Shown here piece after piece: positions 17,201 to 36,569 of a stretch of 64,000 bases of DNA. The notes below the pieces were generated by a model. It saw only the letters and a list, made by a program, of their open reading frames with translations. It was not told the origin of the DNA and did not search any database. Made by a program: the position numbers and the translations under genes. Every line of letters begins with the position of its first letter. The stretch's first letter is position 1. Origin of the DNA: Alphaproteobacteria bacterium (lineage in GTDB: Bacteria; Pseudomonadota; Alphaproteobacteria; UBA8366); contig JANQKC010000021.1 of NCBI GenBank assembly GCA_028281325.1, positions 186,001 to 250,000 on the forward strand, given 5' to 3'.

Positions 17201-18244
17201 TCAACACGTAAGAACACTATCGCCGCGAATGAGACCTTCGGCGGCCGCCGATATTCGCTCTAGCGCCCTTCCGTCGACCAAACGCCGACCAGCCTTACTG
17301 AAGCGCGTTCGGGTGGCTGCGTCATCGGCGAGCGCCACGACGCGTTTGGCTAACGCTACCGGATCGCAGTCCAGAATCGAACCGCCATAGTCCGAAATCC
17401 CCTCCTCCATGAACATGCCGCCGAAGCGGTGCTGATGATCCACAAGGCTGACGAGCACCGCGGGAACGCCAGCGGCTGCCAACTCAAAGCGCATGTATCC
17501 CGCGGCTGTCAGCGCCAGGTCCGACGTCGCCAGAAACTGTGCGATATCATCTGTCCCATCTACGAGTGCGAACGGCTGAAGTCGACGGCGTAGAGCCTCG
17601 TCGATTTCGAAGTCGCGGTCGTAGCCGAGAAGGAAGACACCTTCAAAACCAAACGCCGCCAGATGCTCGAGCACGGCGACGGTATTCGCGAAGACGCGAC
17701 TCGATACGCTTCCCCCCATATTGACGAACAATCGACGACCGCGGAGCGGCTCCGGCTCGCGTGCGCGACCGGCGGATATGAGTTCATCGGAAACGATGAC
17801 GAAGCCAAGGCCGCCGATCATCCGCTCGTTTCGCGTCTCGGCCCAGACATCCTCGGCGTTGGGGCAAATGATAAGGTCGGCATCCGCATGCGGTATGGCG
17901 GTATCGCTGAACACGAGCACCTTGCAGCCCATCCTGCGATAGCTCGCGAGAAAGTCGGGCGATGGATCCAGCATATCGATGATGACCAGATCCGGCGGGT
18001 CGACATCGAGCAAACCCGGCTCCACGTCGTCGTTCGGTGCGAGCACCGGGGCGTCTGCCCAACCGCGCCCGTCGAGGAACGCGCGCGATTCGGGCTCGCC
18101 CTCCACTGCGTAGCTTACTTTCCAGGTATCGGGGCGTGCGCGCAGATGGGCGGCAAGTGTCGACGAGCGCACTAGATGACCCCAGCCATAGCTGAGCCCA
18201 GCCTTGCAACGCACATGACATCGGTAAGGCAGCACTGACGGCAT
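17201..18244 (-). CDS. pseG: PseG-like UDP-sugar hydrolase (nonulosonate pathway)
   Basis: A 347-residue GT-B-fold hydrolase related to PseG, which removes UDP from UDP-2,4-diacetamido-2,4,6-trideoxy-L-altrose before condensation with pyruvate. The N-terminal GWGHLVRSSTLA carries the catalytic His (His23), and LVIIDMLDPSP, RRLFVNMGGSV and DLALTAAGYMRFELAAAGVP follow the PseG pattern. A good ribosome-binding site (GGAG) precedes ATG 18244, 3 bases after the neuB-type stop, so PseG- and PseI-like steps are made together. The exact stereochemistry of its substrate is not provable from sequence. Confidence 0.82.
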   Translation of the reverse strand: MPSVLPYRCHVRCKAGLSYGWGHLVRSSTLAAHLRARPDTWKVSYAVEGEPESRAFLDGRGWADAPVLAPNDDVEPGLLDVDPPDLVIIDMLDPSPDFLASYRRMGCKVLVFSDTAIPHADADLIICPNAEDVWAETRNERMIGGLGFVIVSDELISAGRAREPEPLRGRRLFVNMGGSVSSRVFANTVAVLEHLAAFGFEGVFLLGYDRDFEIDEALRRRLQPFALVDGTDDIAQFLATSDLALTAAGYMRFELAAAGVPAVLVSLVDHQHRFGGMFMEEGISDYGGSILDCDPVALAKRVVALADDAATRTRFSKAGRRLVDGRALERISAAAEGLIRGDSVLTC

Positions 18245-18247
18245 GAA

Positions 18248-19294
18248 CTACTCCAAAAACATGTCCCACACGAACGGCTCGTCGGCCGCGACGGCGCGGC
18301 GCACTTTCCGCCCGACGATGACGTCCGCGAGATATGGCTCGATCCCGCTTCCGGGACGCTTGACCGCAATCATGTCGTCCGTAACTTCGCCGCCGGCCGG
18401 AATCTCCTGTTTCGCAACCAGGCTGCGGCGGCCCAACACCGCCATCTCATGCTCGCTGTCGAGGCGCCGCTTCCGCGGGCTGCCGAGCATCGCCTCCACC
18501 GCGCGAATTGCCTCGATCATTGCGGTCAGTTCGGCCGGATCGACGGAAAAGGAATGATCGGGCCCCGGCAATGACTGATCGGTTGTTATGTGCTTCTCGA
18601 TCATGTCGGCACCGGCCGCGACAGAAATCTTCGGCATCTCGATCCCGGGGGTGTGGTCGGATACGCCGACAGGAAGGTCAAAGGTGGCCTTCAGGCTCTG
18701 CACAACCCGAAGATTATAGTCTTCGGGTTTGGCCGGGTAGTTGCTGACGCAATGCAGCAGCACGACTTCGTCGTTGCCGGCCGACGAAAGCGTGTTGAGC
18801 GCGCGCTCGATATCGCACAGTGTCGCCATCCCCGTCGACAAGACGATCGGTTTCCCGGTCCGCGCGACCTCGCGCAGAAGCGGCAGATGGCCGATCTCGA
18901 AAGACGCGATCTTGTAAGCCGGCACCTTCAGTTCCTCAAGCAGCGCCACGCCTTCCTCGTAAAAGACCGACGACATGAAGGGGATACCGCGCTGATGGCA
19001 ATGTTCGGCGATCGGCTTGTGAAATTCCGTCGGCAGCTCCAACTCGCGGAACAGGTCGGTGATCGATTTGCCGCTGCCGCCGCTGATATGCTCCATCGCC
19101 GCCGCTTTGGACGATACGATCGTATCCGCCGTGAACGTCTGGAACTTGACCGCGTCCGACTTCGCATCGGCCGACATGTCGACAAGCTGCTTCGCCAGAT
19201 CGAGCGACTTATTGTGGTTACAGCCGGCCTCGGCGATGACATAGCATGGATGTCCGTCGCCGACGGGCGCTCCGCCGATCTCGATTGTCCTCAT
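18248..19294 (-). CDS. pseI: NeuB/PseI-type nonulosonic acid synthase
   Basis: A 348-residue enzyme that condenses a 6-carbon amino sugar with phosphoenolpyruvate to give a nine-carbon nonulosonic acid. The TIM-barrel domain starts CYVIAEAGCNHNKSLDLAKQL, continues with VKFQTFTADTIV, YKIASFEIGHLPLL, VLSTGMATLCDI and GVSDHTPGIEMP, and binds substrate through MIEKHITTD. Residues about 285-348 are the C-terminal SAF (antifreeze-like) domain (RRSLVAKQEIPAGG). Placement next to the PseG-like gene argues for a pseudaminate-type rather than sialate-type product. Legionaminate remains possible. Confidence 0.93.
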   Translation of the reverse strand: MRTIEIGGAPVGDGHPCYVIAEAGCNHNKSLDLAKQLVDMSADAKSDAVKFQTFTADTIVSSKAAAMEHISGGSGKSITDLFRELELPTEFHKPIAEHCHQRGIPFMSSVFYEEGVALLEELKVPAYKIASFEIGHLPLLREVARTGKPIVLSTGMATLCDIERALNTLSSAGNDEVVLLHCVSNYPAKPEDYNLRVVQSLKATFDLPVGVSDHTPGIEMPKISVAAGADMIEKHITTDQSLPGPDHSFSVDPAELTAMIEAIRAVEAMLGSPRKRRLDSEHEMAVLGRRSLVAKQEIPAGGEVTDDMIAVKRPGSGIEPYLADVIVGRKVRRAVAADEPFVWDMFLE

Positions 19295-19319: not shown

Positions 19320-20255
19320 TCAGCGGGCCCATCCGGAACGGATGTCGCTGCTCTCTACAATTGACAGTAGACCACTGTCGAGGTCGACCCGCGGCTCATA
19401 CGCGATCCGTTCACGCGCCTTGCCGATTTCCGGGATACGGTAATATATCTCCCGCGACGCATGCCGGTCGCTGCCCTCGAAGGGTATCAGGTTTACTTCG
19501 GAGTCCGATGCGGCCACGGCGATCACCCGACGCGCTAGATCGAGAATGGTCACCGGCTCTCGATCGTTGCCGATGTTGAATGCTTCACCTCTCGTGGCGT
19601 CGGACAACAGTACGTCGATCGTCGCGCGCGCCGCATCGGCGATATGACAGAAGGAGCGAATTTGTTGCCCGTCCCCGTAAACCGTAATCGGTTCACCATT
19701 CAACGCTAGCTTAACGAATTTGGGCACGACAAACTCGTCGACCTGTCCAGGTCCATAAACGTTGAAGAAACGCACGACCTTGCTCGTAACGCCGTATTCC
19801 TTGGAAAAAGCGAGGGCGTATTGCTCCATCGCCAGTTTGGAGACGGCATAGCCTGACTTGGGATTGAACGGCGACGATTCGTTATACTTCTCACGCTCGA
19901 TGTCGCCGAATATCTCCGACGAAGACGTGACCAGCACCTGCTCAATGTCGGCCATTACCGCCGCCTGCAGGACTTTCAAGCTGCCGACGATGTTGACGTT
20001 GAGGCAATTCAACAACTCGACATCGGCGCGTTTAACGCCGAGAACGGCGGCGAGATGCAGCACGCCATCACACCCGCGCATATGCGCCGCCATATTGAAC
20101 TCATCGAGGATCGTGCCGGTAACGTATTTTACGCCGGCCAGTTTCTGGCGCGGATGGACGATATCATAGGAGATAATCTCAACGTCGCGGCTGAGCAATT
20201 CCTGCACCATCCATTCGCCGATGAAACCACTGCCACCCGTCACGAAAATCTTCAT
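19320..20255 (-). CDS. NAD-dependent sugar epimerase/dehydratase (extended SDR)
   Basis: A 311-residue extended SDR. Rossmann motif IFVTGGSGFIGEW at residues 3-15, VLHLAAVLG, catalytic SSSEIFGD and YAVSK (Tyr-x3-Lys), RFFNVYGPGQ, and the C-terminal EAFNIGNDREPVTI are all present. It probably acts on a UDP- or other nucleotide-linked hexose as a 4-epimerase or 4,6-dehydratase. It sits directly upstream of the nonulosonate synthase (25-base gap) and 69 bases after the deacetylase, so the product may feed the same glycan. It is not a PseB/FnlA-type dehydratase. Confidence 0.88.
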   Translation of the reverse strand: MKIFVTGGSGFIGEWMVQELLSRDVEIISYDIVHPRQKLAGVKYVTGTILDEFNMAAHMRGCDGVLHLAAVLGVKRADVELLNCLNVNIVGSLKVLQAAVMADIEQVLVTSSSEIFGDIEREKYNESSPFNPKSGYAVSKLAMEQYALAFSKEYGVTSKVVRFFNVYGPGQVDEFVVPKFVKLALNGEPITVYGDGQQIRSFCHIADAARATIDVLLSDATRGEAFNIGNDREPVTILDLARRVIAVAASDSEVNLIPFEGSDRHASREIYYRIPEIGKARERIAYEPRVDLDSGLLSIVESSDIRSGWAR

Positions 20256-20324: not shown

Positions 20325-21026
20325 TCAAGCGAACGTGCGGTGAATCATGAAAGCTTCGGCAAACATCATGCCCGCCTCCGAACCCCGGACCTTGGCGAGC
20401 GAGCGCAACACTTCAGGCGATCTTGGATGCGGATCTGGGCGCGCCTCGCCCCCGTAGGCCTGCATCGCCTTCACCTTTGCATCGAGGTCCGCATCGCTGA
20501 TCTCGACATAGAAATTCGGTTCCCACTCCGCCGGCCTCAGATAGCCGGTACTGCTCGGGACTTCGCCGCAGACAAGCGGGATGCGCGCGCCGACGGACGG
20601 CCGCGTCGCTACGGCAGCGGCCTCGTGGCAATATTGATGGTCGATATTCGTGCAGCGGCGGTGATGGGTGAAGACGGCAGCCGGTTTGGCGTCCGCGATT
20701 ACCCCCTCCAACCACTGTATGAGTTCGAGGCGCGGTCGACTGTCCATCGCATTATCGGGAAAATCCCCGAATACAAGATCCTCAGCGGCGACGCCAAGAA
20801 CCCCGACGGCCTTTTCACAATCGCGTCGAAGCTCGGCGAAAGCGGCATCCATCTCCACCTGTGTCATCGACGCGCTGCGCGAATAAATGCCCGTCGCGGG
20901 AATGGCGACGGTAACCCGCACACCATGCCGGACCAGCTTCGCGATGGTACCACCCGCGGCAAGCGTCTCGTCGTCCGGGTGCGCGAAGAACGCCAGGACA
21001 TGGTCCAGTGCCCCGAGGTCGATCAT
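20325..21026 (-). CDS. PIG-L/LmbE family N-deacetylase
   Basis: A 233-residue zinc-dependent amidohydrolase. AHPDDE at residues 15-20 and the later NIDHQYCHEAA supply the His/Asp zinc ligands of the PIG-L fold. Family members deacetylate GlcNAc-PI, mycothiol and bacillithiol precursors, antibiotics, and nonulosonate or UDP-sugar intermediates. The start ATG (21026) follows the TAG of the formyltransferase gene with no base between them, so the two proteins are made together. The likely job (inference) is to free an amino group of a sugar so that it can be re-acylated. Confidence 0.9.
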   Translation of the reverse strand: MIDLGALDHVLAFFAHPDDETLAAGGTIAKLVRHGVRVTVAIPATGIYSRSASMTQVEMDAAFAELRRDCEKAVGVLGVAAEDLVFGDFPDNAMDSRPRLELIQWLEGVIADAKPAAVFTHHRRCTNIDHQYCHEAAAVATRPSVGARIPLVCGEVPSSTGYLRPAEWEPNFYVEISDADLDAKVKAMQAYGGEARPDPHPRSPEVLRSLAKVRGSEAGMMFAEAFMIHRTFA

Positions 21027-21722
21027 CTATTCTTCATCTCCAGTCGTGATCGTAACGGCGGCCTCAATGCGGTCTGTGCGCCGTTGCGCGTGCGAGAATC
21101 GCACGACGAAGGGCCCCACCCGCAAGAATGCCCTTGGATATTCGGCGGCGTCGAGCATTCGAATGTGATCATATAGCTGATCGAGATCGGCGATGTCTTC
21201 GGTGATTTCGGATTGCGCCGGCTTGCGGCGCTTGAAGACAACAGCATCCCCCGTCTGCGACACCGGTACAGGCTCGGTTTCCACAATTCGCGCAATCATC
21301 TCGCCCACAGTCCGGGCGGCCCGTAGAAAAATCTCTTCCGCGGCACCCTGTAGAGATAACGGTTCGCGAAGATACACATCCCCAGCATCCATTTCCTCGG
21401 TGATCCGGAACGCGCAAATGACGGTTTCGCGATGCCCGCGCGCGATCAGGTTTTGCAGCGGGCTGCCGCCTCGGCCATATGGAAGGTCGGTTTCGTGAAA
21501 CCCGATACATTCGTGGTTGTGGAAGATCTCGGGCGGTATCTTCCAGCTCCAGTGCGGAAAAAAAACGAAACGCGGCGCCAGTCGCGCAACGGCCTCGGCG
21601 GTAAGGTCGCCGGAATCGGAAATCAGATGCCAATCGCCCGGCAGCACTGACAAAACCTTCTCATAGACCTCGAGGTTCCATGGGCGAATTGTCGCGACGA
21701 CATAAGTGTTGCGGTTTTCCAA
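21027..21722 (-). CDS. Sugar N-formyltransferase-like protein
   Basis: A 231-residue protein related to the catalytic domain of methionyl-tRNA formyltransferase, of the short type found in sugar-amine pathways. GFHETDLPYGRGGSPLQN (residues 74-91) aligns with the N-x-H...LLP...G region of the family: the His is kept (His76), the Asn two residues earlier is Gly, and the Asp appears in MDAGDVY. The C-terminal 50 residues (LYDHIRMLDAAEYPRAF) resemble the small terminal part of these enzymes. The likely reaction is transfer of formyl from N10-formyl-tetrahydrofolate to a sugar amine. It is coupled stop-to-start to the deacetylase. Confidence 0.8.
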   Translation of the reverse strand: MENRNTYVVATIRPWNLEVYEKVLSVLPGDWHLISDSGDLTAEAVARLAPRFVFFPHWSWKIPPEIFHNHECIGFHETDLPYGRGGSPLQNLIARGHRETVICAFRITEEMDAGDVYLREPLSLQGAAEEIFLRAARTVGEMIARIVETEPVPVSQTGDAVVFKRRKPAQSEITEDIADLDQLYDHIRMLDAAEYPRAFLRVGPFVVRFSHAQRRTDRIEAAVTITTGDEE

Positions 21723-22835: not shown

Positions 22836-24068
22836 TCACTTTTTGCTTTCGAACAATCGTGCCGGTTGACCATAAAACCGCGCACCTGATGGGACATCGC
22901 TTCTGACCAGTGAAAACGCGCCAATTATCGCACCATCCCCAATAGTCACACCTGCTTCGATAACTGCGTTGGGACCCAAATATACTCCATTCCCAATATT
23001 CGTTGATCTATAGATCAATGATGATTTTCTATTCACTCGCAACTCGGGACACGGGCTTAGATCACGAACATGTGTATATATCTGTACTCCCGCGCTTATA
23101 TCACAATTGTTTCCAATAGTTAGCCCGCCATATCCGTCCAAATGAACATTCGGTCCAACCCAAACATTATCGCCAATATTTATGTCACCGCCCAAGTATA
23201 CACTATCAAATATAGTAGTATTGCGCCCAGACCTGCACAGCGACGCCTTGTTCTCCGAGCTGAACAAGACTGCGCCGGTTGGCAAGACGATGTTTTTTGA
23301 TTTCATTCGAAGTAGCCTTGCGAAGTCGAGGACCTCAACAAAGTCGCGATATTGGCTCACCTTTGCGCAAAAATGGCTGTCTGAGAGTCGATCCGCCACT
23401 TCAATAACTGCTTCGACGCTGAATTCTGTTCCGCAGCCTTGAAGAAGCAGCCAACAAAGCAGCTCGATTCTTTCAAAATCTTCTTGTGTATCGACTGTGA
23501 CGACAATGTCTGGTCGGGCCAAGTTTCTTGGCGCTTCTAGGTAACGAGTCCGTGTCTTTGGGTCGCGGAGCATGATCGGCTCGACGTGTTCACGATCCTC
23601 TGGCGCAGTTGCCATCGCCGCTGCCCGATTTAGCGTGGCCCGAGTAAAGGCAGCGCAACCTACACCGTATGGATAGCTGGGCCGCGCAAATGTTGAGACA
23701 TGATCAACGGACCGATCGTCCAGCGCGTCGACGACGCGGTCGACGATGTCCGGATCGATGAGCGGATTGTCGGCTGAAATCCGAACGACGATGGAAGCCT
23801 CATGTGCATCGGCCGCCGCCGCGAAGCGCCCGAGAACATCGTCCTCGCTACCCCGGAAACTGGCTACGTCGTGCTGCGTTGCCACCTCGACGACGGCATC
23901 GTCCTCGCCTTTTTCCGTGGTCGCTACGACGATCTTGTCCAGACGCCTGGACAGCTTCAGCCGGTCGATGAGAAATCCCAGCATCGACTTGCCGCAGAAA
24001 GACCGCAGCACCTTGCGCGGCAGACGGGAGGATCCGCTGCGTGCCTGAATAATGGCAACGACTGTCAT
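22836..24068 (-). CDS. SpsF-type CMP-sugar cytidylyltransferase fused to a left-handed beta-helix acyltransferase
   Basis: A 410-residue two-domain protein. Residues 1 to about 240 are an SpsF/CMP-KDO-synthetase-like cytidylyltransferase (AIIQARSGSSRLPRKVL, VVRISADNPLIDPDIVD, VTVDTQEDFERI). Residues about 260-410 are hexapeptide repeats (IGDNVWVGPNVHLDG, IGNNCDISAGVQIY, IGNGVYLGPNAVIEAG, ARFYGQPARL) of a sugar O/N-acetyltransferase. It probably activates the nonulosonate with CMP and acetylates a sugar in the same path. The 3' half is clearly more AT-rich than neighbouring genes, pointing to a junction between domains of different origin. Such a fusion is uncommon, and its real substrates are inferred from the pseI-, pseG- and pseC-like neighbours. 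Confidence 0.87.
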   Translation of the reverse strand: MTVVAIIQARSGSSRLPRKVLRSFCGKSMLGFLIDRLKLSRRLDKIVVATTEKGEDDAVVEVATQHDVASFRGSEDDVLGRFAAAADAHEASIVVRISADNPLIDPDIVDRVVDALDDRSVDHVSTFARPSYPYGVGCAAFTRATLNRAAAMATAPEDREHVEPIMLRDPKTRTRYLEAPRNLARPDIVVTVDTQEDFERIELLCWLLLQGCGTEFSVEAVIEVADRLSDSHFCAKVSQYRDFVEVLDFARLLRMKSKNIVLPTGAVLFSSENKASLCRSGRNTTIFDSVYLGGDINIGDNVWVGPNVHLDGYGGLTIGNNCDISAGVQIYTHVRDLSPCPELRVNRKSSLIYRSTNIGNGVYLGPNAVIEAGVTIGDGAIIGAFSLVRSDVPSGARFYGQPARLFESKK

Positions 24069-25782: not shown

Positions 25783-26697
25783 CTATCCCCACGCTCGTTC
25801 CGGCATCTCGAAAACCGGCAGCACCGCGGACAGCAAGGAACGGGGATTGTAAACGAACATCGATTTGCCTTCTGCCTTCAGCAATACCTGCCAGGCGTCG
25901 ATGTAATCCACGATGTTGTTTCGAACCGTGTTGTGAGGCGCCCGCACCCCAAGCGCGGCGTCTTCCCGGCCACGGTTACCCTCGTCGGGTCCAAGCCAGA
26001 AATACCGGCGATCGTATAGATCGACCCCGACGAGTACGATCCTCTTCCATCCACCGATAATGGCCAGATTGATGGTATCGATCAGCGTCCCCGGGCCATG
26101 CACCAACCCTTCCTCGATAGACCGTGACGGCGCCGCATAGCGGCCACGCACCTTGGTCCTGAAACGGCAAATCGGCCGGTCGTCCGGGAGAAGCCCTTCG
26201 CCGACGATAAGGTTGCCCGTCGATGCCCGCCATTCCTTCTGGACTACGAACTTCGTTCCGTCGTATTGCCGGTTTCCGACGATACTGTCGCAATAGTGCC
26301 GGGCAACCGGACGAAGATGCGCCAACGTATTGACCAGATAGGATTCACGCACGACGTGATAATCCATGCGTACGGCACGCTGATAGTGAAACCAGTTGAA
26401 CCCCATCGTGTCGTGCTGTGCGATTGCCTGCCATTCCGCCGCGATCATTTCCTTGATCGAATAGCCGGATCCGAAGATGAAAACGGTGTCCGACCGTTTG
26501 TCCGCGAACAAGACATCCGGGCCAATAATATTGCGTCTGCGCTCGTTCATCATGTCCGCGGCATAGGGATAGGCATGCATCTCGAACCGGCGGAGGCGCT
26601 CGAAGCGCGGCGTCACGCCGCGCAGGTCACCGAACAGAGACGTGTAATTCTCGGCAACACGCCAGACGTCCGGGTCGGAAGCTCCCCGTTCTGCCAC
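25783..26697 (-). CDS. DUF115 / GT42-like protein, candidate nonulosonate transferase
   Basis: About 304 residues from GTG 26697, four bases after the pseC-like gene's stop; an earlier in-frame start would lie inside that gene. VFIFGSGYSIKEM is the nucleotide-binding start of DUF115 and GT42 sialyltransferase-like folds. GTLIDTINLAIIGGWKRIVLVG then VDLYDRRYFW, and a C-terminal FVYNPRSLLSAVLPV, recall CstII-type sialyltransferases and the Maf/MptE (DUF115) fold. Placement directly after a PseC-like gene and near pseI, pseG and spsF suggests transfer of the CMP-nonulosonate to a glycan or flagellin. The fold call is by motif eye-matching, so function is tentative. A decayed 3' copy is at about 24105-24300. 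Confidence 0.7.
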   Translation of the reverse strand: MAERGASDPDVWRVAENYTSLFGDLRGVTPRFERLRRFEMHAYPYAADMMNERRRNIIGPDVLFADKRSDTVFIFGSGYSIKEMIAAEWQAIAQHDTMGFNWFHYQRAVRMDYHVVRESYLVNTLAHLRPVARHYCDSIVGNRQYDGTKFVVQKEWRASTGNLIVGEGLLPDDRPICRFRTKVRGRYAAPSRSIEEGLVHGPGTLIDTINLAIIGGWKRIVLVGVDLYDRRYFWLGPDEGNRGREDAALGVRAPHNTVRNNIVDYIDAWQVLLKAEGKSMFVYNPRSLLSAVLPVFEMPERAWG

Positions 26698-26701
26698 GAC
26701 T

Positions 26702-27904
26702 TCAGGGCGCAATGATCTTGCCGATCTCTTCGATGACACGGTCGATATCGTCGTCGCCGAGCCCGTTATAGTAAGGCAAGGCAAGACTGCTGCCGTAAAA
26801 GGCCGCCGCTCCGGGCAAATCCGGATCGCCATACCGGTCGCGATAGTAAGGTTGCCACGCGACCGGCGTGTACAGCACCTGCGTCCCGATGCCCCTCTCC
26901 CGCAACCGGTTCATCAGCGTCGCGCGATCCATCCCGATCGCCGGGAAATCGATATGCACGAGATAGAGATGCAGGACCGTATCCGTGTTGCCCTGCTCCA
27001 TGATCGTCCGCAGCTTCGGGTGCAGCGGGGCCAGCCCTTCGTCGTACCGCGCCCGCATTTCCCTGCGGCGTTCGGCGATGCGCTCCAGCTTGAGCACCTG
27101 GGAGCGCGCTAACGCGCATTGAATCTCGCTAAGGCGGTAGTTGTATCCGATTTCCTGCATTTCGTAGTACCAGGGGTTGGGATCCCCATTGCCGTCAAAC
27201 GCCTGTTCGGTATTGGCAAAGCCGCTGCGCGTCATACCGTGGTTGCGCAGCAACAGCATGCGATCGCGCACGGCCGCATCCTTGCACGTCGTCACGCCGC
27301 CCTCGCCGCTGGCGATCGTCTTGGTCGGGTGAAAGGAAAAGGTTGCAGCGTCCGAATAGCGGCAGTCGCCGACCCAACCCTCACCGCTATCCGCATACCG
27401 ATAGCGGCCACCCAGCGCATGGCAGGAATCCTCGACGACGGACCAACCCCGCTCCAACGCCATCTCCGACAGCGCCGGCATGTCCACGAGGCGTCCGGCC
27501 ATATGGACCGGATAAACGGCCTTGACCCCGGAACCGGCACCGGCGGCCGCTTTTTCCAGATGTTCCAGTTCCATCAATCCGGTCGTCGGATCGACATCGG
27601 CGAAGACGACCTCGCCGCCCGCCATGCGCACAGCATTCGCCGTCGCCAGGAAGGTCATCGTCGGCACGATCACCTTGTCGCCAGGCCCGATACCGAGCGC
27701 CATCGTCGCAAGATGCAGCGCCGCCGTGCCGCTGCTGCACGAAACGGCATACGGCGCCGACGTCGCGTCGGCGAAAGCTTGCTCGAAGGCTCCAACCTGC
27801 GGCCCCATTGTCAGGAAGTCGCTTTCGAGCACCTCGGTCACGGCTTCGATATCATCCCGTTCGAGAACCGGTTTGCCGTAGGGTAGAAAAGGTAGATCAG
27901 CCAA
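26702..27904 (-). CDS. pseC: PseC-like UDP-4-amino-sugar aminotransferase
   Basis: A 400-residue DegT/DnrJ/EryC1 aminotransferase. The N-terminal FLPYGKPVLERDDIEAVTEVL and SDFLTMGPQVGAFEQAFA are characteristic of PseC, which adds the C4 amino group to UDP-2-acetamido-2,6-dideoxy-L-arabino-hexos-4-ulose. The PLP lysine is Lys195 in SFHPTKTIASGEGG, and EDSCHALGGRY supplies the cofactor-binding Asp. It follows the ABC flippase by 41 bases and precedes the GT42-like gene by 4. The nearest source of its 4-keto substrate in the window is the FnlA-type dehydratase at 32851-33885. Confidence 0.88.
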   Translation of the reverse strand: MADLPFLPYGKPVLERDDIEAVTEVLESDFLTMGPQVGAFEQAFADATSAPYAVSCSSGTAALHLATMALGIGPGDKVIVPTMTFLATANAVRMAGGEVVFADVDPTTGLMELEHLEKAAAGAGSGVKAVYPVHMAGRLVDMPALSEMALERGWSVVEDSCHALGGRYRYADSGEGWVGDCRYSDAATFSFHPTKTIASGEGGVTTCKDAAVRDRMLLLRNHGMTRSGFANTEQAFDGNGDPNPWYYEMQEIGYNYRLSEIQCALARSQVLKLERIAERRREMRARYDEGLAPLHPKLRTIMEQGNTDTVLHLYLVHIDFPAIGMDRATLMNRLRERGIGTQVLYTPVAWQPYYRDRYGDPDLPGAAAFYGSSLALPYYNGLGDDDIDRVIEEIGKIIAP

Positions 27905-31299: not shown

Positions 31300-32088
31300 T
31301 CAGCAGAGATCATGAAGATTGTACGGACGATCATAGTACGTGAGGAATGCGGAATAGTTCTCCGGAAGCAAATAGTGTTTGCGCGAACCACATCGAACAT
31401 ATGCAGGTTCATAAGGCGGAAAAAAGGAGGCCCGAATGCGCCTGTCTTTCTCATCCGCGTCCGGCACATTTGTAACATCGCGTAAAATTTGCACCGAGTT
31501 CCTTTTGTAAAACGTTCCCTCACCCATCATCGGTCGCCGCGGCACACGATTGTTTAATACATCGTCAAAGACTTGAGCCAGCTTTCGACTCGTGGCTTGC
31601 ACAGTCCTTTGGTAGAGACTAATTGCAGTCTCATCTTGACGAACAGGGAGCTTGAATTCGTACGCGAGATCACCGGAATCTACCTGCTCAGCCATCCAAT
31701 GTATCGTAGTCGCGTAGCTGTCATCTTTATTAACAATTGCATGGCATATCGAGTTGTAACCTTTATACCTAGGCAATGGAGAGTTATGTAAATTCAAAGC
31801 TCGCCAGTTTACCAATTCAAGAATTTCTTTAGGTAACTTCCAAATGTGTTGTATTGACAATATAAAGTCGACATCTTTTGTGTTCACGGCCTCTTTTATT
31901 AGGGCAGTATTGCGCTGAGCATTGGAAATAAAGATTGGTTGATTTGAGCTGTGAGGCTTCACCACATCTTCAAAAAACTCTTCGCTTGTCACCACGCCTT
32001 TCACGTCGATCACATGCGCAAAATCCTCAGAAAGGATTTTATATGCAGCTTGTGCAAAACGACGATCGCCAAGAAATAAAATTTTCAA
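31300..32088 (-). CDS. Sugar N-formyltransferase
   Basis: A 262-residue Fmt-like enzyme. LNLHNSPLPRYKGYNS gives the N-x-H pair (Asn99, His101) and VDSGD the catalytic Asp137, so the formyl-transfer triad is complete. The C-terminal IRASFFPPYEPAYV is the small terminal subdomain. Family members formylate the amino group of dTDP- or UDP-4-amino-4,6-dideoxy sugars using N10-formyl-tetrahydrofolate. The start is ATG 32088, 15 bases after the preceding methyltransferase stop. Both genes are AT-rich compared with flanking genes, which suggests recent joint acquisition. folD elsewhere in the window helps supply the folate donor. Confidence 0.9.
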   Translation of the reverse strand: MKILFLGDRRFAQAAYKILSEDFAHVIDVKGVVTSEEFFEDVVKPHSSNQPIFISNAQRNTALIKEAVNTKDVDFILSIQHIWKLPKEILELVNWRALNLHNSPLPRYKGYNSICHAIVNKDDSYATTIHWMAEQVDSGDLAYEFKLPVRQDETAISLYQRTVQATSRKLAQVFDDVLNNRVPRRPMMGEGTFYKRNSVQILRDVTNVPDADEKDRRIRASFFPPYEPAYVRCGSRKHYLLPENYSAFLTYYDRPYNLHDLC

Positions 32089-32850: not shown

Positions 32851-33885
32851 CTAGACTCGCAAATCTATTTTCGATGTCACCGCAACTATCTCAGGCAGAC
32901 TGGCTAACAGCCGTACAATCTCAGGGACATCGAGCCCTTCTGCATTCTCCGACGTAAAGGCATCGATCTCGGCCGTCCTGGCCTCACCGTCCGTGAAAAA
33001 CCGTTCGAATTCCTGTCCGACCTGGCAGGGAATGCGCCAATAGTCGCCCTGATCCTCGGCGCGCGACAATTCTTCGGCGGTCGCCAACGTCTCATGCATC
33101 TTCTCGCCGGCGCGGATACCGATTATCTCGACTGGGTTTTTTGCCTCCATCAGGTCCAGACAGGCCTGTGCCATATCAGCCAGCGTTGCCGCCTTCGCCT
33201 TGCGGATGAACAGGTCGCCGTTGCCGCCACCCTTGAGCGCATGGAGCACGAGATCGACCGCATCGGAGAGCGGCAACAGGAAGCGCGTCATCCCCGGATG
33301 CGTCACCGTCAGCGGCGCATCCTGCCGGATCTGATCGATGAACAGCGGCAACACCGAGCCGCGCGAGAACATCACGTTGCCGTACCGGACGCCGCACAGC
33401 ACCGTCTTGTCGCCCGGCTGCTGGGCCTGCGCGCGCGCGATCATGATCTTTTCCATCATCATCTTGCTGCAGCCCATCGCGTTCACCGGATAGGCCGCCT
33501 TGTCCGTGCTCAGCACGACGAGTTTGTCCACACCATGATGCAGCGCGGCATCGATCACGTTGTCGGTGCCGATGATGTTCGTCTTGACCGCCTCCATCGG
33601 AAAGAACTCGCAGGACGGAACATGCTTGAGCGCGGCGGCATGGAATACCAGATCGGCGTCCTTCATGGCCCGTGCGATGCGCGCCGGGTCACGGACATCG
33701 CCGATCTCGAACCGAAGCCGATCATCTGCGAACGCAAGGCGCATGTCGTGCTGTTTCTTCTCGTCGCGGCTGAACACAACGATGCCCGCCACCTCGCCTT
33801 CGTCGAGCAGCCGCCGCGCCACGGTCTTGCCGAACGAGCCGGTGCCGCCCGTGATCAATACTGTCTTGTCCGTCAGACTCGTCAT
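32851..33885 (-). CDS. fnlA: UDP-GlcNAc 4,6-dehydratase/5-epimerase (FnlA/CapE type)
   Basis: About 344 residues. LITGGTGSFGKTVARRL, HAAALKHVPSCEFFPMEA, KTNIIGTDNV, LSTDKAAYPVNAMG and YGNVMFSRGSVLPLF follow FnlA/WbjB/CapE closely, and the C-terminal EDQGDYWRIP and SENAEGLDV are family features absent from PseB. It makes UDP-2-acetamido-2,6-dideoxy-beta-L-arabino-hexos-4-ulose. This is the first intermediate of UDP-L-FucNAc synthesis and also the known substrate of PseC. ATG 33885 is preferred over an in-frame TTG (33894) that overlaps the cupin stop. Confidence 0.93.
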   Translation of the reverse strand: MTSLTDKTVLITGGTGSFGKTVARRLLDEGEVAGIVVFSRDEKKQHDMRLAFADDRLRFEIGDVRDPARIARAMKDADLVFHAAALKHVPSCEFFPMEAVKTNIIGTDNVIDAALHHGVDKLVVLSTDKAAYPVNAMGCSKMMMEKIMIARAQAQQPGDKTVLCGVRYGNVMFSRGSVLPLFIDQIRQDAPLTVTHPGMTRFLLPLSDAVDLVLHALKGGGNGDLFIRKAKAATLADMAQACLDLMEAKNPVEIIGIRAGEKMHETLATAEELSRAEDQGDYWRIPCQVGQEFERFFTDGEARTAEIDAFTSENAEGLDVPEIVRLLASLPEIVAVTSKIDLRV

Positions 33886-33890
33886 TCCGC

Positions 33891-34307
33891 TCAACCCGCC
33901 AGTTTCGGGACCGTGTCGGGATCCGCCGGGTCGAATTCCTTGGACCCATAGGCCACGATGACCGCCGGTGCGTCACTTTCATTGACCAAGGCGTGCGACG
34001 TGCCGGGCCCGGCATGAACCAGCCGCGGGGCAGACGCATCGAGCGTTTCATCAACCACGCGACCGTCCGGCGTAGTCATCAACAGGCGCACGACGCCCGC
34101 CGCGCAGAAGAACCATTCGCCCTTCTTTTCGTGGTAGTGGTCGCCCCGGCGCATTCCCGGCTCGACGCTATATACGTAAATCTGCCCGCCGGACGGGACG
34201 CCCTGCGTCGTAAATCTCAACGCCTCGTAGAGCACGCCACGCTCATCGCTGTGGAGCGTTAAATCGTCAATCCGATACGGTGCGGACCAGTCCGTTGTCT
34301 TTGCCAT
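33891..34307 (-). CDS. Stand-alone CapF-type cupin (sugar 3-epimerase domain)
   Basis: A 138-residue cupin. PGMRRGDHYHEKKGEWFF and the C-terminal KEFDPADPDTVP closely follow the C-terminal cupin domain of CapF, which epimerises C3 of the FnlA/CapE product. In CapF this domain is fused to an N-terminal SDR reductase. Here the cupin is alone, and no matching reductase half was found in the window. It sits between fnlA and the 2-epimerase, where capF/fnlB would be expected. A WxcM/FdtA-like ketoisomerase is a weaker alternative. Confidence 0.82.
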   Translation of the reverse strand: MAKTTDWSAPYRIDDLTLHSDERGVLYEALRFTTQGVPSGGQIYVYSVEPGMRRGDHYHEKKGEWFFCAAGVVRLLMTTPDGRVVDETLDASAPRLVHAGPGTSHALVNESDAPAVIVAYGSKEFDPADPDTVPKLAG

Positions 34308-34317
34308 GACCGATTCC

Positions 34318-35457
34318 CTAGACGAATTTCTGTTCGGGCGGACCCCAAACCTGCTCGTCGACGACGCGCGTCATGCCCAGCACGATACGCACGACCTTTT
34401 TTGACACCTCGGCCTGACGGTAGGCTTCGGGCGCCGGCGATCTGTCCCTGTCGACCGGATCTTCGATCACCAGCTTGACCGCGCGAAGCACGTCGTCTTT
34501 CTGCAAGCCGGTGATCGGGCAATACCCGGCCTCCAGCGATTCCTGTTTTTCCGTCGATTTGCGGATCGCGACCGCCGGGAAGCCGAGGATGCTCGAATCC
34601 TCATGTATCGTGCCGCTGTCGGAGATAACGCATTTCGATTCCGTCTGCAGCCTGATGTAGTCGATCAGCCCGAACGGCTCATGCCACACGATTTCGGGGC
34701 TGCTGCTTTCGAGTAGGCCCAACTGCTCGAGGCGACGGCGCGTGCGCGGATGCGTGCTCACGACGATCGGACATTCGTATTCGTCGGCCAAGGCATTGAA
34801 AGTCTCGACCATCGTCGCGAGCGCGCCGCCCTTGTCGACATTCTCTTCGCGGTGAATGCTGGCCGCGATGTAGGCGCCCGGCGTCAGGCCGAGCGTCCCG
34901 AGAATCTCACTGGCAGCGAATTTGTCGGCCATGCCCTGATAGACCTCGTAAACCGGGCTGCCGACCACGAACACGTTGCGCGGATGAATGCCCTCGCGCA
35001 GGAGGTTCCGTCGGCTATGCTCCGTATAGGCCAGGTTGACGTCGGCGGTGTGATCGATAATGCGGCGATTGAGTTCCTCGGGCACATCGTTGTCGAAAGA
35101 CCGGTCCCCGGCTTCGATATGGAAGATCGGAATCTTCTTCCGCTTCGCCGGAATTGCCGAAAGGCCCGAGTTGGTGTCCCCGAGGATCACGATCGCGTCC
35201 GGTTTCTCGCGATCCATGATGTCGCCCGTCTGCTCGATGATCGCCGCCATTTGTCCCTGGATGCTATCGGACCGGGCGTTCAGCACATGGTCCGGAAGCC
35301 GGAGATCGAGGTCCTGAAAGAACACATCGTTCAGCGTGGGATCCCAGTTCTGACCGGTATGCACGAGCACATGGTCGCAATGCGCATCGAACATCTTGAT
35401 GATGCTGGCCAAGCGGATGATCTCCGGGCGCGTGCCCAGAATGGTCATGACTTTCAT
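34318..35457 (-). CDS. fnlC: UDP-N-acetylglucosamine 2-epimerase family (FnlC/CapG/WecB)
   Basis: About 379 residues from ATG 35457. TILGTRPEIIRLASIIKMFD, VHTGQNWDPTLND, IVILGDTNSGLSAIPAKRK, IEAGDRSFDNDVPEELNRR, SIHREENVD and CVISDSGTIHEDSSILG match the GT-B-fold C2-epimerases. In the context of fnlA and the CapF-like cupin it is most like FnlC/CapG (UDP-L-FucNAc formation) rather than WecB. It is joined to the upstream aminotransferase by an ATGA overlap (35454-35457). An in-frame extension to 35523 overlaps that gene and is rejected. Confidence 0.92.
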   Translation of the reverse strand: MKVMTILGTRPEIIRLASIIKMFDAHCDHVLVHTGQNWDPTLNDVFFQDLDLRLPDHVLNARSDSIQGQMAAIIEQTGDIMDREKPDAIVILGDTNSGLSAIPAKRKKIPIFHIEAGDRSFDNDVPEELNRRIIDHTADVNLAYTEHSRRNLLREGIHPRNVFVVGSPVYEVYQGMADKFAASEILGTLGLTPGAYIAASIHREENVDKGGALATMVETFNALADEYECPIVVSTHPRTRRRLEQLGLLESSSPEIVWHEPFGLIDYIRLQTESKCVISDSGTIHEDSSILGFPAVAIRKSTEKQESLEAGYCPITGLQKDDVLRAVKLVIEDPVDRDRSPAPEAYRQAEVSKKVVRIVLGMTRVVDEQVWGPPEQKFV

Positions 35458-36569
35458 TGCACGGCCTTTTTCAAGGTCTCGACGATACGGTCCTGCTCCG
35501 ACGGCCCGACCCACCAGCCACAAGGCAGCGACACTTCCCGAGCGTCGAACCAGTCGGTGTTCGGAAGCGGCCGCCGTTCCGCCTCAAACATCGAGTAGAT
35601 GTCGTTGCGGACGTGAATTTGTGCAGCGGCGATCCCTGCCTGCGCGAGCCGGTCGATCACCGCCGCGCGATTCTCCACTAGTATCGTATAGCCCCAATAT
35701 GTCTGGAAATCCGCCGGATCGCGCTTCAGCGTGACAACGCCGGGTACATCCGCGAGCGCGGCGTCATACCGCCGGCCGTTCTCGTGGAACCGCTGCAGAA
35801 TCCAATCGATATGCGCCATCTGCGACAATCCGAGGGTGCCGGCGATATCGTTCATGTTGCCCTTGAAGCCCCAGTCGGAAATATCGTCGTGCCAAACATC
35901 CCGTCCCTCGCGCATGTCGCGGTCAATGCCGAACCATTTCGCCTTGCGGGCACGGCGATAGTCTTCCTCGTCGCCGCAGAACAGCGCGCCGCCGTCGCCG
36001 GTCGTCACATGCTTGATCGCCTGAAAGGAAAAGCACACGAAATCGCCCTTGGAACCGATCTTCCAATCGCGCCGCTTCGCACCGAACGCGTGCGCGGCGT
36101 CTTCGATGACCTTCACCCCCTTTGTCTTCGCGAGCGCATAGATGTCCTCGATCGCCGCCGGCGCGCCCTCCTTGTGCAACACGTAGATTGCGCGCGTGCG
36201 GGGGGTGATCAGCGGTTCGATCGTCTCGGCGGTCACCATACCGGTCTCGCGGTCCACATCGGCCCATACCGCCTTACCGCCCAGCATCGCGATCGGCTCG
36301 TTACCCGCGACACACGTAAGCGCCGTGGTCACGACCTCGGTCCCGGGCCCGACGCCGGCGAGCTTGAATGCAATCGTCAGACTCATGGTGCACGAACTGA
36401 CAGCGACCGCGCGCGGATTGCCGATAAAGTCGGCAATGGACTCGGTAAAGGCTCTGACCCTCGCCCCTTCGGCAAGAAAACCGCTTTGCAGCGTTTCCGC
36501 CATGCGCGCCTCGGTCTCGGGCGGCATGAAGACCTTAAAAAGAGGAATTAGTTCAGATGATGCGGACAA
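35454..36569 (-). CDS. DegT/DnrJ/EryC1/StrS sugar aminotransferase
   Basis: About 371 residues, PLP-dependent. FSFQAIKHVTTGDGG places the Schiff-base lysine at Lys186. VIEDAAHAFGAKR gives the cofactor-binding Asp, and SSCTMSLTIAFKLAGVGPG the N-terminal substrate loop. It transaminates a 3- or 4-keto nucleotide sugar. It is the first gene of the minus-strand glycan run and is translationally coupled to the 2-epimerase. The apparent start is TTG 36569, since an in-frame TAG lies just upstream. Which ketosugar it uses is unknown. The FnlA product, after the cupin, is one candidate. Confidence 0.9.
   Translation of the reverse strand: MSASSELIPLFKVFMPPETEARMAETLQSGFLAEGARVRAFTESIADFIGNPRAVAVSSCTMSLTIAFKLAGVGPGTEVVTTALTCVAGNEPIAMLGGKAVWADVDRETGMVTAETIEPLITPRTRAIYVLHKEGAPAAIEDIYALAKTKGVKVIEDAAHAFGAKRRDWKIGSKGDFVCFSFQAIKHVTTGDGGALFCGDEEDYRRARKAKWFGIDRDMREGRDVWHDDISDWGFKGNMNDIAGTLGLSQMAHIDWILQRFHENGRRYDAALADVPGVVTLKRDPADFQTYWGYTILVENRAAVIDRLAQAGIAAAQIHVRNDIYSMFEAERRPLPNTDWFDAREVSLPCGWWVGPSEQDRIVETLKKAVQ

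Follow-up and report, generated by a model that had tools for sequence, protein, structure and literature searches.

The gene pair and its nonulosonate cluster

The window, by which we mean the whole stretch analysed (64,000 nucleotides of contig JANQKC010000021.1 from an alphaproteobacterium), holds a formyltransferase gene (FT1) and a PIG-L deacetylase gene that lie end to end within a nonulosonate-type cluster, with the following features.

17201-18244, minus strand: PseG-like UDP-sugar hydrolase (68.3 bits against a PseG cut-off of 153.55)
18248-19294, minus strand: divergent NeuB-family nonulosonate synthase (NnaB 370.9 bits of 399.65; PseI 308.5 of 340.25)
19320-20255, minus strand: NAD-dependent epimerase/dehydratase between PIG-L and NeuB (domain and family profile matches)
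20325-21026, minus strand: PIG-L/LmbE-type de-N-acetylase, 233 aa, with a complete metal site (H16-D18-D19...D129-H130) and the signature N-[IV]-D-H
21024-21029, minus strand: FT1/PIG-L junction, TAG directly abutting ATG with 0 intergenic bases; a GGAG motif lies 11 bases ahead of the deacetylase start codon
21027-21722, minus strand: FT1, atypical sugar N-formyltransferase (Formyl_trans_N + Formyl_trans_C_2), 231 aa, TTG start, Pfam and 1zgh matches
22836-24068, minus strand: CMP-nonulosonate cytidylyltransferase fused to a hexapeptide acyltransferase domain, a possible C4-N-acylase
26702-27904, minus strand: PseC aminotransferase (430.8 bits against a cut-off of 423.5)
31300-32088, minus strand: FT2, a second formyltransferase with a canonical N-x-H...D site, candidate C4-N-formyltransferase or an enzyme of another sugar
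32851-33894, minus strand: inverting UDP-GlcNAc 4,6-dehydratase of the PseB/FnlA type, below both curated cut-offs (PseB 306.3 of 407.75)

FT1 is the upstream and PIG-L the downstream gene in the direction of transcription, and both reading frames lie on the minus strand exactly where the initial annotation had placed them, with the FT1 stop codon ending at 21027 and the deacetylase start codon beginning at 21026 (GGA GAT GAA GAA TAG followed at once by ATG ATC GAC CTC). The weight given there to the stop-to-start junction was misplaced, however; the commonest arrangement in related loci is a 4-base overlap, and a zero gap is normal operon packing and uninformative alone, so that the evidence lies in the conservation of the pairing and not in the gap.

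Pfam assigned the PIG-L domain to the downstream product with 85.2 bits (cut-off 28.2) and Formyl_trans_C_2 to the upstream product with 69.2 bits (cut-off 27), while the Formyl_trans_N match of FT1 was weak and just under threshold (21.3 against 26.1). The window deacetylase is the sole PIG-L match in its source genome. Its metal ligands, which correspond to the HxDD...DH site with a general-base Asp in the LmbE superfamily (PMC4101496), are essentially invariant in 103 family members, and the family has an invariant Asn (Asn127 in the window) at the position that the HxDH His occupies in BshB. In an alignment of 110 FT1 members, His76 and Asp112 are invariant, as are Gln90 and Asn91, and the canonical Asn of the N-H-D triad is gone in 108, the site being occupied by Cys (82), Val (10), Gly (3; Gly74 in the window), Leu, Ile or Ala, with Asn in only 2. 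FTb, a further formyltransferase family met in related clusters, and the Leg-type formyltransferases likewise keep His and Asp without the canonical Asn, which FT2 retains. Because FT1 lacks this Asn, 10-formyl-tetrahydrofolate is a presumed rather than a certain donor. The nearest solved structure to FT1 is 1zgh (E 2.6e-63, nearly full length), presumably from Clostridium thermocellum.

The missing Asn would also suit an enzyme of the formyltransferase fold that attaches a different small acyl group, such as lactoyl, where PIG-L has exposed the amine. The invariance of His and Asp in FT1 argues against such an enzyme, and those enzymes with this fold that are known to act on sugars are formyltransferases. 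Psychrobacter marincola makes Pse5(R-lactoyl)7Ac (PMC7281560), so that a non-acetyl group at N5 of pseudaminic acid (Pse) does occur in nature, and Psychrobacter glacincola carries an FT1-NeuB-PIGL locus (L109). On balance we regard transfer of a group other than formyl as improbable.

The NeuB/PseI- and PseG-like neighbours pointed out in the initial annotation are real genes, but the synthase falls under both the PseI and the NnaB cut-offs, leaving the designation 'pseudaminic' unproven. The PseG-like protein scores 335 bits against the PseG profile of the module, a profile that includes this protein, and the module synthases of eight relatives exceed the PseI cut-off. Since NeuB, PseG and PseB of the window score below their cut-offs and PseC above, the product is best called a Pse-like nonulosonate. 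The profile models found neither a GNAT acyltransferase nor a true FTb in the window cluster, in which FT2 or the hexapeptide domain at 22836-24068 may serve for C4 acylation. The window PIG-L belongs to a 13-row clade (99% SH-aLRT) with relatives from Magnetovibrio, Zavarzinella, Desulfotignum, Zixiibacteriota, Prochlorococcus and Pelagibacter. The window represents a divergent subtype of the module, and its exact sugar and stereochemistry are uncertain.

Two further observations concern this island. An FnlA-like dehydratase, a cupin, a UDP-GlcNAc 2-epimerase (34318) and a second DegT aminotransferase (35454) stand in a row at 32851-36569, which suggests that another amino sugar is made in the same island. 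The longest open reading frame at 25783-26832 gave no hit in Pfam or NCBIfam and shares 131 bases with the PseC gene (26702-27904); its real start codon probably lies further downstream.

Linkage of formyltransferase and deacetylase across genomes

FT1 homologues came from genomes sharing the window's phylum, from others sharing its family and from 80 named GTDB contigs (the best 80 of 517 matching relatives), and 89 loci were picked by FT1 similarity. PIG-L was adjacent to FT1 in 60 of them, separated from it by a single gene in 23 and by about 1.6 kb in 2, the intervening gene, when present, usually being PseI; the four loci without PIG-L all stop at a contig edge, and all 85 assessable loci have the deacetylase. 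The carriers span at least 15 bacterial phyla and include the cultured species Pseudoalteromonas lipolytica and Zavarzinella formosa. Because this set had been chosen by FT1 similarity, we added an unbiased sample of 61 loci centred on PseI above its curated cut-off, taken from 398 genomes sampled evenly across the window's phylum. Seven of these loci held both genes, 54 neither and none a single one (Fisher p = 2.3e-9), and chance adjacency of FT1 and PIG-L is thereby ruled out (7/7 versus 0/54). The neighbourhood search proposed in the initial annotation has therefore been carried out: FT1 essentially never occurs without a deacetylase, and the finding named there as fatal to the idea, that the homologues are never adjacent elsewhere, was not encountered.

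On the PseI tree the presence of FT1 switches state 15 times, at least eight of these switches being forced by well-supported branches, which indicates that the two genes are gained or lost jointly. A strong FT1 match was found in 8 of the 398 genomes, and all eight also have a PseI/NeuB match, versus 82 of 398 overall. Distance matrices of FT1, PIG-L, PseG and NeuB intercorrelate at 0.51-0.75 and those of PseB and PseC with FT1 at just 0.40-0.44; as physical linkage confounds these correlations, they were not used for placing the step.

It might be argued that the substrate of the pair is another amino sugar of that surface glycan and that shared glycan islands account for the clustering. The window cluster does contain genes for other sugars (the 2-epimerase and the second DegT aminotransferase), and about half of the pairs in the window's 13-row PIG-L clade are not next to nonulosonate genes. 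Against this, every pair in the random PseI sample accompanies PseI/NeuB, mostly as an immediate neighbour, and where the data sufficed the unlinked carriers too proved to have nonulosonate genes in another part of the genome, so that a different sugar seems to us a poor candidate. Overall, the pair is nearly always beside pseI/neuB or in the same genome as them. In Prochlorococcus and Pelagibacter some pairs are solitary and surrounded by housekeeping genes (L050:9989-11393, L065:9989-11391, L066:2620-3999, L075:1991-3368). Nonulosonate genes were located elsewhere in genomes with unlinked pairs from Prochlorococcus (L217, L218), Pelagibacter (L219) and Zixiibacteriota (L220) and in the genome of L085 (L221); a strong NeuB was not found in the two small single-cell genomes of L050 and L075.

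The neighbourhood data also bear on whether PIG-L could be a deacetylase of bacillithiol or mycothiol synthesis that lies beside FT1 fortuitously. It belongs to the same superfamily, and its best named NCBIfam matches are BshB2 and BshB1; the scores are nevertheless far under the BshB/MshB cut-offs, at 27-55 bits against 182-224 (BshB2 54.5 of 195.25, BshB1 53.4 of 182.5, and a third of 26.8 against 224.35). The invariant Asn in place of the HxDH His and the constant association with FT1 and pse genes point the same way. A thiol-precursor substrate, which the initial annotation had named as a possible refutation, is practically excluded, and we give it almost no credence.

The amine that is probably re-acylated

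Pseudaminic and legionaminic acids carry two amines. An aminotransferase creates the one at C4 of the hexose (C7 in the product), which PseH then acylates, and the one at C2, which becomes C5 of the nonulosonate, comes already acetylated from UDP-GlcNAc (PMC5109656). The other acylases in each cluster therefore offer a guide to the position at which FT1 and PIG-L act. Of 46 complete FT1 clusters, 43 contain a separate candidate C4 acylase, either a PseH-like GNAT or the second formyltransferase FTb (six carry both), and two of the remaining three show weak candidates. On these counts we rejected the notion that FT1 is a stand-in for PseH at C4. In seven complete clusters FTb accompanies FT1 and PIG-L with no GNAT detected, and here the only acetyl group left for PIG-L would be that at C2. 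Clusters with FTb and without FT1 lack PIG-L in nine of nine cases (one of them ending at a contig edge), a result that fits FTb working on a newly made amine; FTb thus appears to replace PseH at C4 and to formylate directly, without a deacetylase, although these C4 roles of GNAT and FTb are themselves inferred. PseG is often fused C-terminally to a PseH-like GNAT domain (L028, L061, L086, L106 and others; confirmed by Pfam in a sample).

These counts also allow the two nitrogens to be weighed against each other. PIG-L might instead strip the C4 (C7) acetyl added by PseH, with FT1 formylating the same position, and 7-N-formyl pseudaminic acid is indeed a natural compound of Pseudoalteromonas distincta, as cited in PMC7281560 and PMC3210612. 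This placement is difficult to reconcile with the seven clusters in which the sole acetyl would be at C2, and removal and replacement would be unnecessary where FTb apparently formylates C4 directly; we consider exchange at C4 unlikely, if somewhat less so than a different acyl group or a different sugar. The unmasked amine is most likely C2 of the hexose, corresponding to C5 of the nonulosonate, and the predicted products are therefore 5-N-formyl nonulosonates.

We consider it probable that FT1 and PIG-L together form a two-enzyme N-acyl exchange step in a nonulosonate pathway. In this model PIG-L would hydrolyse the N-acetyl group derived from UDP-GlcNAc, and FT1 would then formylate the freed amine, presumably from 10-formyl-tetrahydrofolate, to yield a 5-N-formyl nonulosonic acid, while acylation of the C4/C7 amine would fall to another enzyme, such as a PseH-like GNAT or FTb. 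The acyl group and its position are those that we infer, as is the intermediate acted upon, which may be the UDP-sugar, the free hexose, the nonulosonate or its CMP form. The pattern that an exchange module predicts, a deacetylase and a re-acylase always together plus an acylase for C4, is the one seen across the related clusters, nearly all complete ones having a candidate for the C4 enzyme. The acetyl-to-formyl swap on one sugar put forward in the initial annotation accordingly gains support from the acylase counts per cluster; as a genomic module the idea has strong support, and its chemistry is plausible.

Related gene combinations suggest that exchange at N5 may be of wider occurrence. 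In two genomes, Pse-type clusters carry PIG-L and FTb without FT1 (L194:4205-13784, with L204, and L197:1044-10792); the neighbours of this PIG-L are a class I/II aminotransferase and an ATP-grasp protein whose C-terminal domain is of the L-amino-acid-ligase kind, and one of the clusters adjoins flagellin genes. Such clusters may exchange the acetyl for an aminoacyl group. More distant pairs of PIG-L with a formyltransferase of about 300 aa were seen in Leg-type clusters of the UDP-GlcNAc 2-epimerase type (L210:8974-10550, L212:9092-10629, L213:1149-2731) and, without clear Leg genes, at L214:7892-9598. FT1-PIGL pairs are also carried by contigs of a viral collection (L110-L133, for example L111:7992-10945, L124:7782-9190 and L126:7992-9342), some accompanied by PseB, an aminotransferase, a CMP-synthetase and NeuB and several next to phage-like genes; if encoded by phages, a nonulosonate acyl exchange could change the glycans of the host or of the virion. 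We tentatively entertain, as possible rather than probable, a general and recurrent N5-acyl exchange in which PIG-L unmasks the amine and FT1, Leg-type formyltransferases or ATP-grasp amino-acid ligases cap it, the module moving independently of synthase phylogeny and being carried by phages. If this general view is true, phages could use the module to alter surface sugars.

Significance and comparison with known systems

Nonulosonic acids coat flagella, capsules and S-layers, where they are read by phages, hosts and antibodies. If the proposed exchange is right, N5-formyl nonulosonates would be predictable from FT1-PIGL sequence across many phyla, the database names 'methionyl-tRNA formyltransferase' and 'LmbE-like protein' would need correction, and the pair would constitute a two-enzyme system directly testable with known Pse-pathway intermediates. 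The initial annotation knew of no described two-gene module of this kind, and our search agrees: in the open-access full text covered, we found neither a deacetylase-formyltransferase pair for nonulosonates nor any account of two genes that alter the acyl group at N5. Papers on the Vibrionaceae nab cluster (PMC7371886) and on Clostridium Pse (PMC13317340) mention neither a formyl group nor a deacetylase, and the sfm cluster of Shewanella oneidensis was rejected as a functional precedent, its paper mentioning no formyl or deacetylase gene (PMC3765264).

Halorubrum sp. PV6 makes 5-N-formyl-legionaminic acid, in which the GlcNAc-derived N5 acetyl is replaced by formyl, and a candidate formyltransferase gene follows legG in the operon (PMC6137143). 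This system differs from ours in using the Leg (NeuC/LegG) route in an archaeon, its formyltransferase of about 317 aa is unlike FT1 and similar in size to the Leg-type formyltransferases, and the paper names no deacetylase. The FTb-type systems of 7-N-formyl-Pse and the flagellin islands of Geobacillus, which contain formyltransferases (PMC5109656), share with FT1 a formylation in the pseudaminic pathway, whereas the FTb-only clusters examined have no deacetylase partner. Conversely, the flagellin islands of Aeromonas place a deacetylase amid pse genes, as here, but no formyltransferase or exchange step has been described for them (PMC7874193). BshB and MshB resemble PIG-L in their HxDD...DH metal site, their GlcNAc-derived substrate and a deacetylation followed by formation of a new amide (PMC4101496); they differ in serving thiol biosynthesis, in having His at the position of Asn127 and in curated scores that PIG-L does not reach. 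The structure 1zgh, labelled a methionyl-tRNA formyltransferase, belongs to the same family as FT1, and the Met-tRNA label is unsupported by the genomic context of that family. Finally, NodB and NodA of rhizobia, although they are unrelated enzymes that act on a chitooligosaccharide and attach a fatty acyl group, follow the same order as that proposed for FT1-PIGL, with a deacetylase and then an N-acylase acting on one amino sugar.
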